Assembly: GCA_021851785.1 (NCBI GenBank)
Contig: JAJZBV010000012.1
Location: 1-64,000, forward strand
DNA: 64,000 nucleotides
Reading direction: 5' to 3'
From: Pseudomonadota bacterium
GTDB taxonomy: Bacteria > Pseudomonadota > Alphaproteobacteria > Acetobacterales > Acetobacteraceae
In this document: positions 22,828 to 53,640 of the stretch, in pieces
Layout: each line of letters begins with the position of its first letter
Position numbering within the stretch: position 1 is the first letter of the stretch
Notes under the pieces: model-generated
What the model was told of the DNA's origin: nothing
Seen by the model: the letters and a program-made list of their open reading frames with translations, nothing else
Databases searched by the model: none
Program-made: the position numbers and the translations under genes

Positions 22828-22936
22828 CAAAAAAGACTTTCTTCCCGTTTTCTCGGAGCGGGCAGTGCCGCAGGCACTGCCCAACGGATAAAAGTTTTTG
22901 GTTCTTTTTTTCAAAAAAGAACGATTTTTTCTTCCC
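22828..22936. repeat. Interspersed palindromic repeat, copy 2 (GC hairpin 22860-22882, AT hairpin 22901-22922)
   Basis: gggcagtgccgcaggcactgccc and gttctttttttcaaaaaagaac. Confidence 0.9.
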
Positions 22937-48311: not shown

Positions 48312-48382
48312 TGCGAGAGAAAACGTGGGGGAGAAATTGGTTCTTTTTTGAAAAAAAGAACCAAAAAACTTTTGTCCTGGGG
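48312..48382. repeat. Interspersed palindromic repeat, copy 6 (AT hairpin 48339-48362)
   Basis: ggttcttttttgaaaaaaagaaccaaaaaactttt. Confidence 0.9.
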
Positions 48383-48762
48383 TATTGTGTCGGCGGCGAT
48401 GCCACATAAAGGAAACGAGGAGGCGGGGCTTATACGAGGGCGCCTATCCGGCGACCTGTGGGGGTGGAAAGCGGGCCAGCAGCTCCGGGAGTAGCTGACC
48501 TGGAAAGGTGCCTCTCGGCAGTGTTTTCCCTCGTGTTGTGACGTATACTGAGTACTTTTCTATCCGCCAGAGCAGATCTCACAGCGGAACTCGGTGCGGG
48601 TGCGGAGGCGCGACATTCTGCGGTCGGTAGCGATTTTGACCATCGCGCGCGTTAACGAGTTTCGATAAATTGGCTTTCGGTAAGCGATGGTTTAGGCGGC
48701 TGTGGTCGCCTCGTATGCCACACGAAGCAGCTTAATCCAACAATCTTTCCAAGCAGAACCCC

Positions 48763-49871
48763 ATGGATCAAACCACCGACGAACAACCATTTGAGATCGA
48801 GGACGAGTTCAAACTCGGCATCGATGCAGGCGTCGAAGATGAGAGCGCCGAAGAAGCCACGAGCGTCAGCTTTAGCATCACGAGCTATGGGGCCGACTAC
48901 CCGGTCGATACCCTAGTTAAGCGGATGAAGGGGGAGGCGTTTTTCATCCCAAAATTTCAGCGTAACTTCGTGTGGTCGCAGAGACATGCGTCTCGCTTTA
49001 TCGAATCTTTGCTGATGGGCCTCCCGGTTCCGGGGATATTCCTTTACAAGGAAGCAGACACCGGGAAACATCTTGTCGTTGATGGCCAACAACGACTGCG
49101 TACTCTTCAGTATTTCTACGCCGGTGTGTTCAAAGATAAGGCATTTCGCCTCATTGGTGTCCGCAAGGAGTGGGAGGAAAAATCTTATGGAGACTTACAA
49201 CCCAACGAGCAACTTAAGCTTGATGACTCGATTGTCCATGCCACGGTGTTCCAGCAGGATGAACCGAAGAATTCTCTGAAAAGTTTGTACTTCGTATTTG
49301 AGCGGATCAACTCTGGCGGTATCCGTCTTTCACCGCAAGAGATCCGGAACTGCATCAGTGAAAGTGCGGTGCTCGAGGCGGTACGCGACCTGAACGACGA
49401 TCATAACTGGCGCGCGATTTTCGGCTCCAAGAAAAACAATCGACTGAAAGATCAGGAGCTAGTTCTACGCGCCCTGGCCATGATCCATGATCGCGCCAGC
49501 TACTCCGCTCCGATGCGGGATTTCTTGAACACCTTCGCGGCCGACGAAGAGAACAAGGTTCAATCTGCAACGCTAGACGAACTGCAACGTCTCTTTCGGC
49601 GGTCAATGGAAATCATTTTCAATACGAAAAAAAAGCGGCGTTTCGGCCTGTCCGAGCATTGAATGCCGCCGTTTTTGAAGCCGTTACCGTCGGCATCGCT
49701 GAACGCTTGCGTGCCATCAAGCAAGCTCCTGACCTTAATAAAGTCACGGCCGAATATGACAAACTGCTTACAAATCAAGAGTTTTTGGGCGCTTCGAACA
49801 GCGCTACCGCGACCGAAGAATCGGTGAAGACCCGTCAGCGTTTGGCCGTCGACGCATTTTCTGGTACCTGA
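48763..49871 (+). CDS. DUF262-domain (GmrSD N-terminal-like/ParB-related) protein, interrupted by an apparent -1 frameshift at 49629-49635
   Basis: Zero frame 48763..49662: FFIPKFQRNFVWSQRHASRFIESLLMGLPVPGIFLYKEADTGKHLVVDGQQRLRTLQYFYAG (DGQQR motif). The -1 frame continues AAFRPVRALNAAVFEAVTVGIAERLRA...TATEESVKTRQRLAVDAFSGT, stop at 49869-49871. Confidence 0.85.
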
Positions 49872-49873
49872 AC

Positions 49874-50344
49874 TTGTCGATATCGGTTAATAATCGTTTC
49901 CGAGAGGTTGAAAAACTCGTAAACGCAGCTCAAGACAAGAATACTGATCCGGAGACAGCCTCTTATTACTGCAAACTCGGATGCATTATGATTTGCGGCA
50001 CAATAGAGCGCTCGGTTGAAGTCCTCGTCACCGAACGAGTCGCGCAACGATCGGCCCCTCAGATTTCCATGTTCCTGAAATCATTCTTCAAACGCGGAAA
50101 TAACTATGATTGTGATGAGATCGAAAATCTTCTCTTCAGATTCGACAGTAATTGGGGTCATGTGTTTCGAGCCTATATCGAGAAGCATGATGAGATAAAA
50201 GCTAGCATTTCCTCATGCTATGCTGTAAGAAACTCGATTGCGCACGGCGGCATCCAATCATTGGGGCCAAAGATATTGAGGCAGTATTTCGATAATGCCT
50301 TTACGTTGATTGCCGAACTCGAGGGTTTCCTGCGGTCTAATTGA
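49874..50344 (+). CDS. HEPN-domain protein (putative RNase; RiboL-PSP/MAE_28990-like)
   Basis: TTG start 2 nt after the DUF262 stop; helical 156-aa protein with CYAVRNSIAHGG, matching the HEPN R-x4-6-H motif (R at 50228-50230, H at 50243-50245). Confidence 0.72.
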   Translation: MSISVNNRFREVEKLVNAAQDKNTDPETASYYCKLGCIMICGTIERSVEVLVTERVAQRSAPQISMFLKSFFKRGNNYDCDEIENLLFRFDSNWGHVFRAYIEKHDEIKASISSCYAVRNSIAHGGIQSLGPKILRQYFDNAFTLIAELEGFLRSN

Positions 50345-50445
50345 AGGACTGGCATTACGCGCCGTGCCGGCGCTGATCACCACCGCCGGGCAGCCGCAAG
50401 GCATGTGCGCGCCCGCCCGCACCGCCCGGCACGCGATACGACGTA

Positions 50446-50505
50446 TTGAGAGCAAAAGTTTTTTGGTTCTTTTTTTTCAAAAAAGAACAATTTTTTCTCT
50501 CGTCC
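50446..50505. repeat. Interspersed palindromic repeat, copy 7 (AT hairpin 50466-50488), inverted relative to copy 6
   Basis: Minus strand reads GTTCTTTTTTGAAAAAAAAGAACCAAAAAACTTTTG. Confidence 0.9.
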
Positions 50506-51855: not shown

Positions 51856-53640
51856 GTGAGCGGAAGCAATATCGTGGTTATTCCCAACAACACCAATGGC
51901 ACGCTGGACACGGTCAGTACCCCGCAAGACTATCTGTTCGTTGCGGTCGAGCAGGGGGGAACTCTTGATATAATCGCGGGTAATATAACCGCGGGTATAA
52001 CCGCGGACGGCACGGTTACCGTTACCAACCTCGCCGTCCAGCAGGGCGGGTTTGACAGCGGCGGAACCTATTACCAGCCAGGCAGCATCGTTATCGCTGG
52101 CGGCGTTCTCGACAATACCGGCACCGCCGTCATCGGGGGCCTGGTCGAGATCGAAAACGGCGGTTCGGCCTCTCTCACCCTCGCCTCCCCGAATTCGACC
52201 ATCAACGGCGTCCCCGCGACCCCCGGCACGATCGACATCGTCGGGGCGAGTTCGGTTAATCTCGCCTACGCCCAGGGCGTCACCGCGTTCGGCGGTCTTT
52301 TCGATTACGCGACCCCCGGCGGCACGGCCGCGCCCGGCGGCACGGCGACGGTCAACGATATCATCGCCAATCTCGGCAGCTTCGGTGATTTCACCGCCGG
52401 CGACACGATCGACCTCGCGGGTTACGCCACGGGCACGAGCTTCAATGTGAGCGCGGTGAACCTGTTCGCCACATCTCCAGGGGACAACGCGCTAGCGAGC
52501 AACGTCTACGACCTGACCGATACGATCGGCGGCACCACCTCCACCATCGCGACGATCGTCACGACCAATGGCTCGACGCCGGTCTTCAACACCAGCAATG
52601 ACACCGTGACCGCCTGCTACGCCGCCGGGACGCGGATCCTGACCGTGCGCGGCGAAGTGGCGGTGGAGGAATTGCGCGTCGGCGATCTCGTCGTCACCTT
52701 CGCTGGCGGCGGCGCGCCGCTGAAGCCGGTGCGCTGGGTCGGCTATCGCCATGTCGATCTCACCACCCACCCCAGCCCCGAGCAGGTGCGTCCGGTGCGG
52801 CTCGCCGCCGGCACCCTCGCCCCCGGCCTGCCGCATCGCGACCTCGTGCTCTCGCCCGGTCACGCCATCTGCATCGACGATCACTTGATCGATGTCGAGC
52901 GGCTCTTGAACGGCGTCACCGTGACGCAGGACACGGAGGCGACCAGCGTCACCTATTACCATGTCGAACTCGACGAACACGACCTCGTGCTCGCCGAGGG
53001 GGTGTTCTCCGAGACCTATCTCGACACCGGCAATCGCGGGCAATTCGCCAATGCCGGCAATATCATCGCGCTCCATCCCGATTTCTTGCCGCAGCAGGAT
53101 AAATCGGTCGGCGCCTGCCGGCCGTGGCTCACCGGCGGGCCGCTTCTTGCCGCCATCCGCGCCCGGCTGATCGGGGTGATCGAGGCGGACGGGTATCGCG
53201 TGACCGAGGCGCCCGATCTCCATCTCGTCGCCGGAGGGTGGCAGAGTTCTCCCGAAGCCGCCGGTGTGGCGAATTTCCGTTTCGCCCTGCCCCGTGTCGC
53301 GAGCGATCTCCATCTCCGCTCGCGGGTCTGGATGCCGGGCGGGCTTTCCGCCGAGAGCGAGGATATGCGCCGGCTTGGCGTCCGGGTGCGGCGCCTGGTC
53401 GCTTTCGGCCCCGCCGGAAGCCGCGAGATCGCGCTCGACCATCCCGCCCTCGGCACCGGGTTTTATCCCCTGGAGCGGGACGGCGACGATGCCTGGCGCT
53501 GGACCAACGGCGCGGCGCTGATCCCGGCGGGCCTGCTCGGCGATGCCACCGCCCTCGAGATCTCCCTCGCCGGCACCGGGTCGTATTGGGAAGCCCCGGC
53601 GGAGGACAGCGCCGAGAACGCCGTCAGGCTGTCCGCCTGA
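51856..53640 (+). CDS. Hint (Hedgehog/intein)-domain protein with N-terminal beta-rich surface-type repeats
   Basis: TACYAAGTRILTVRGEVAVEELRVGDLVVTFAGGGAPLKPVRWVGYRHVDL...LVLSPGHAICIDDHLIDVERLLNGVTV, a Hint_2 pattern. Confidence 0.88.
   Translation: MSGSNIVVIPNNTNGTLDTVSTPQDYLFVAVEQGGTLDIIAGNITAGITADGTVTVTNLAVQQGGFDSGGTYYQPGSIVIAGGVLDNTGTAVIGGLVEIENGGSASLTLASPNSTINGVPATPGTIDIVGASSVNLAYAQGVTAFGGLFDYATPGGTAAPGGTATVNDIIANLGSFGDFTAGDTIDLAGYATGTSFNVSAVNLFATSPGDNALASNVYDLTDTIGGTTSTIATIVTTNGSTPVFNTSNDTVTACYAAGTRILTVRGEVAVEELRVGDLVVTFAGGGAPLKPVRWVGYRHVDLTTHPSPEQVRPVRLAAGTLAPGLPHRDLVLSPGHAICIDDHLIDVERLLNGVTVTQDTEATSVTYYHVELDEHDLVLAEGVFSETYLDTGNRGQFANAGNIIALHPDFLPQQDKSVGACRPWLTGGPLLAAIRARLIGVIEADGYRVTEAPDLHLVAGGWQSSPEAAGVANFRFALPRVASDLHLRSRVWMPGGLSAESEDMRRLGVRVRRLVAFGPAGSREIALDHPALGTGFYPLERDGDDAWRWTNGAALIPAGLLGDATALEISLAGTGSYWEAPAEDSAENAVRLSA

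Follow-up and report, generated by a model that had tools for sequence, protein, structure and literature searches.

A probable PD-T4-2-like DUF262-HEPN module with a frame break in its DUF262 gene in an Acetobacteraceae genome

In the present study, we found that a stretch of 64,000 nucleotides (the window) from an Acetobacteraceae genome of 3.16 Mb in 66 contigs carries, on an AT-richer segment, two neighbouring genes encoding a DUF262 protein and a HEPN protein, which we consider likely to form an anti-phage module that belongs with PD-T4-2 and was acquired horizontally. Directly demonstrated are the protein folds, the conservation of the catalytic motifs, a tight linkage of the two genes and the fact that the segment, present here, is absent from a congener. 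The DUF262-HEPN arrangement is already known, being that of PD-T4-2, and the pair described here is a new, possibly inactive, member: the reading frame of its DUF262 gene breaks within a run of eight A's, and this copy is more probably a decayed pair or a product of misassembly than a specialised variant. The coordinates of all features are collected in Table 1.

Table 1. Position of the DUF262-HEPN module, its frame break and its borders within the window
Feature	Position	Strand	Basis or remark
Palindrome, left copy, GGTTCTTTTTTGAAAAAAAGAACC	48339..48362	.	24-bp dispersed repeat
AT-richer inserted segment, ~2.0 kb	~48431-50453	.	GC profile and comparison with congener G185
DUF262 (GmrSD_N) protein, 299 aa as read	48763..49662	+	ORF, Pfam, motifs, structure model
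A8 run with the DUF262 frame break	49627..49634	+	in phase A_AAA_AAG
DUF262 remainder, -1 frame, AFRPVRALNAAVFEAV...VKTRQRLAVDAFSGT	49636..49871	+	matches PD-T4-2_A, NsnA and intact homologues in their C-terminal parts
HEPN protein (HEPN_RiboL-PSP), 156 aa, TTG start	49874..50344	+	ORF, Pfam, R119-x4-H124, structure model
Palindrome, right copy	50465..50488	.	inverted relative to left copy, inside a 41-nt inverted repeat

The GC content falls to 0.46-0.54 across the module (~48.4-50.5 kb), against 0.70-0.78 upstream and 0.63-0.70 downstream, and the module is flanked by an amine oxidase gene on one side and an arginyl-tRNA-protein transferase family gene (bpt) on the other, in agreement with an earlier, sequence-only reading of this DNA that had placed an AT-richer stretch between these two genes. 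The start which that reading had assigned to the stretch, 48383, falls within a flank common to the congener G185, so that the borders given in Table 1 are the better bounds of the insert. In G185, the same flanks (window 48339-48430, and 50454 onward) lie upstream of bpt with ~77 unrelated bp between them, and as these stand in place of ~2.0 kb, the module was either gained here or lost in G185; its low GC favours gain over loss. Among 300 genomes drawn from the Acetobacteraceae, the HEPN protein had a match only in the window's own genome, while searches for further copies yielded none in the phage collection and just two distant matches on plasmids. Both ends of the module lie close to copies of a palindrome with the pattern GGTTCTTTTTT-N2-AAAAAAGAACC, which occurs in 17 exact copies genome-wide (window sites at 22900, 28391, 48339 and 50465) and in 4-40 copies in five congeners, is absent from most other relatives and possibly serves as a terminator. 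The genes between 44836 and 55047 comprise transport, yggT, folD, amine oxidase, bpt, Hint-domain and nickel-transport genes, and since the flanking genes gave no convincing PADLOC match, a larger defence island was rejected. Downstream of bpt, the window encodes a 594-aa protein with a Hint_2 domain (51856-53637). Elsewhere in the same genome, contig G000:C34 carries a second pair of DUF262 and HEPN_RiboL-PSP genes (L219:219-2175, - strand), intact and divergent, with products of 396 aa and 253 aa, respectively; just upstream of it are a PIN-domain-like ORF and a Phd-like antitoxin ORF, both assigned from sequence only.

The DUF262 protein matches the Pfam family GmrSD_N (E 1.1e-29) and carries QR (residues 66-67), DGQQR (107-111) and FxxxN (179-183), the three motifs named for DUF262 (PMC12137116), all of which are invariant or nearly so across 38 DUF262 homologues. 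Its AlphaFold model (mean pLDDT 83.7) has BrxU as its top PDB match, with ParB CTPases and sulfiredoxin next, which fits the description of the DUF262 fold as ParB/Srx-like (PMC10952713), although the low whole-chain TM-scores of 0.2-0.3 mean that these matches back the core fold only. The second protein belongs to HEPN_RiboL-PSP (PF18735, E 3.7e-18), a family matched by 39 of the 40 HEPN proteins that we aligned, and its VRNSIAHG stretch corresponds to R119-x4-H124; in this alignment H124 is invariant, and R119 as well as E45 are at least 90% conserved. The AlphaFold model of the HEPN protein has a mean pLDDT of 95.3, and its top Foldseek matches are 2hsb, a HEPN protein (probability 1.00), and, at ~0.9, MntA-HepT toxins, with a TM of ~0.5 and weak E-values (>0.01). 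The sequence-only reading had described a DUF262 protein with FQRNFVW and DGQQR motifs next to a 156-aa HEPN protein with an R-x4-H motif, and both assignments are confirmed by profile and motif, the structural check on the second protein likewise pointing to HEPN proteins within the strength of those E-values. Its further proposal, that the pair differs from canonical GmrSD through the absence of a DUF1524 domain, is borne out as well, as Pfam found DUF1524 neither in the HEPN protein nor in the translations of the DUF262 gene in its two frames.

The association of the two genes is not particular to this genome. We took DUF262 homologues that scored at least 120 bits and left room for a further gene downstream, and called adjacent HEPN genes by profile; a HEPN gene lay directly downstream in 31/35 genomic, 30/38 viral-contig and 7/7 plasmid loci, whereas none of 32 genomic homologues below 80 bits had an adjacent HEPN. 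The plasmid pairs, seen in all seven regions opened, are from Hymenobacter, E. coli, Kocuria, Rhodococcus, Arthrobacter, Salmonella and Phaeobacter. The neighbourhood survey that had been called for earlier thus reveals a very strong co-occurrence, and both the operon idea and the defence reading put forward at that time stand. The present module is a further divergent example of a linkage that spans plasmids, viral contigs and genomes of many phyla.

What sets this copy apart is the state of its DUF262 gene. The open reading frame reaches its stop at 49662 after 299 aa, and the last ~80 residues are found in the -1 frame, which ends at 49869-49871; read through, the protein has 369 residues and aligns almost end to end with intact homologues, its residues 37-367 aligning with the Hymenobacter plasmid protein. 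The spacing of 2 nt between DUF262 stop and HEPN start, as previously noted, is hence correct for the stop of the -1 frame and incorrect for that at 49662, which lies 211 nt before the TTG. Because the gene is frame-broken, it is doubtful that the system is active here, short of the break being an artefact. An error of sequencing or assembly in the homopolymer, with the gene intact in the cell, is a possibility of some weight, though less likely than not. In favour of such an error, the break coincides exactly with one of the only two homopolymers of at least eight nucleotides in the 64 kb of the window, its longest (the other sits in the right-hand palindrome), the HEPN gene is unbroken and retains its catalytic residues, and beyond the break a near-invariant T (35/36 homologues) and R (36/36) are kept in the -1 frame; short-read assemblies, on the other hand, seldom miscount eight A's.

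For an intact member of the family, we propose that DUF262 would act as the sensor or NTPase and HEPN as the RNase, by analogy with what is described for their families. The DUF262 protein would most likely sense infection through its ParB/Srx-like nucleotide pocket, the trigger being perhaps a replication product or phage DNA that carries modifications, and most likely restrains its HEPN partner until then; after sensing, the HEPN protein, probably a dimer with R119 and H124 at the active site, would cut RNA and thereby halt phage growth. The steps of sensing, control and RNA cutting are modelled on related systems, and as the cited literature gives no mechanism for PD-T4-2, the conserved residues identified here could guide the design of mutants in an intact relative. 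The same two genes might instead constitute a toxin-antitoxin pair maintained for stability, with HEPN as the toxin, DUF262 as its neutraliser and no dedicated role in phage defence, given that the HEPN protein has the RxxxxH motif of HEPN-MNT systems, that its model is nearest to a HEPN protein and to the HepT toxins of such pairs, and that small two-gene modules with touching genes occur on plasmids and in viral contigs. We consider this unlikely, however, since the partner that Pfam identifies is DUF262 and not the MNT nucleotidyltransferase of such pairs, and since PD-T4-2, which has the same two domains, was found through selection for anti-T4 activity (Vassallo et al. 2022, PMC9519451), protects E. 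coli against T4 in both native and K-12 hosts and, when deleted from ECOR65, leaves T4 plaquing restored (PMC9519451).

Returning to the frame break, a third explanation would be programmed -1 slippage at the A8 run, yielding a short as well as a full-length DUF262 protein. The heptamer A_AAA_AAG is in the correct phase, the run is among the few of its length in the window, the -1 product aligns through the break without gaps against intact homologues (judged by eye), and a hairpin can form downstream. This hairpin is nevertheless ordinary, lying within the range of shuffled sequence (z -1.07), and a conserved slippery site was not found at the break position, as most close homologues have no run there and six with an A6-A8 run nearby (L047, L049, L064, L120, L130 and L136) have unbroken genes. 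The only other homologue that breaks nearby, in the Clostridia MAG locus L055 (6650-7200), does so at an A7 run close to the corresponding position and shifts in the opposite direction. A search of the homologues for matches in more than one frame returned nothing. With a hairpin no better than shuffles and a run that is not conserved, programmed frameshifting was set aside as very improbable, and the lack of a conserved slippery site in the homologues makes a mutation or an assembly error the likelier cause; decay or error is accordingly our first choice and recoding our last. The short protein would keep the nucleotide-pocket motifs and lose the C-terminal part. It is very improbable that the DUF262 sensor is switched by -1 frameshifting or by slippage in the A run, with short and long forms setting the amount or the restraint of HEPN. 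A functional break would raise the importance of the module, such support as there is for it coming from the sequence itself.

The preferred reading, a horizontally acquired module of the PD-T4-2 kind that is decayed or misrecorded in its DUF262 gene, also agrees with the comparison with known systems. The PADLOC model PD-T4-2_A matches the DUF262 protein at 1.7e-42 (residues 61-289) and the -1-frame remainder at 2.8e-4, while PD-T4-2_B matches the HEPN protein weakly (1.1e-7), its best model being hit by only 10 of the 40 partner HEPNs. The NsnA model of Menshen scores better than PD-T4-2_A both for the window DUF262 protein (1.1e-57) and in best score across the 38 DUF262 proteins, and the DUF262 gene, taken alone, therefore does not point to PD-T4-2 in particular. 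In Menshen (NsnABC), a predicted OLD nuclease accompanies the DUF262 gene (review PMC10952713), and although the window protein is closest to NsnA among the PADLOC models, membership in that system is barely conceivable and was rejected, because the pair lies between the amine oxidase gene and bpt with no OLD-type nuclease gene adjoining and has instead a HEPN partner without any Nsn match. The GmrSD, BrxU and SspE type IV restriction enzymes share with our protein a DUF262 domain containing QR, DGQQR and FxxxN, BrxU being its best structural match; unlike them, the module lacks the DUF1524 nuclease and has a separate HEPN protein as its putative effector. A 'Ribo L-PSP-HEPN ... operon with ParB' was noted computationally in 2013, its function untested (Anantharaman et al., PMC3710099), and corresponds to the present pair in having the same HEPN Pfam family beside a ParB-like (DUF262) gene. 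The likeness is closest to PD-T4-2, whose domains include DUF262 and the PF18735 HEPN (review PMC10952713): the same two domains are present, both genes match its PADLOC profiles and the genes are adjacent and co-directional, whereas the window pair differs in its frame-broken DUF262 gene, its divergent and weakly matching HEPN protein and a role in defence that is putative.
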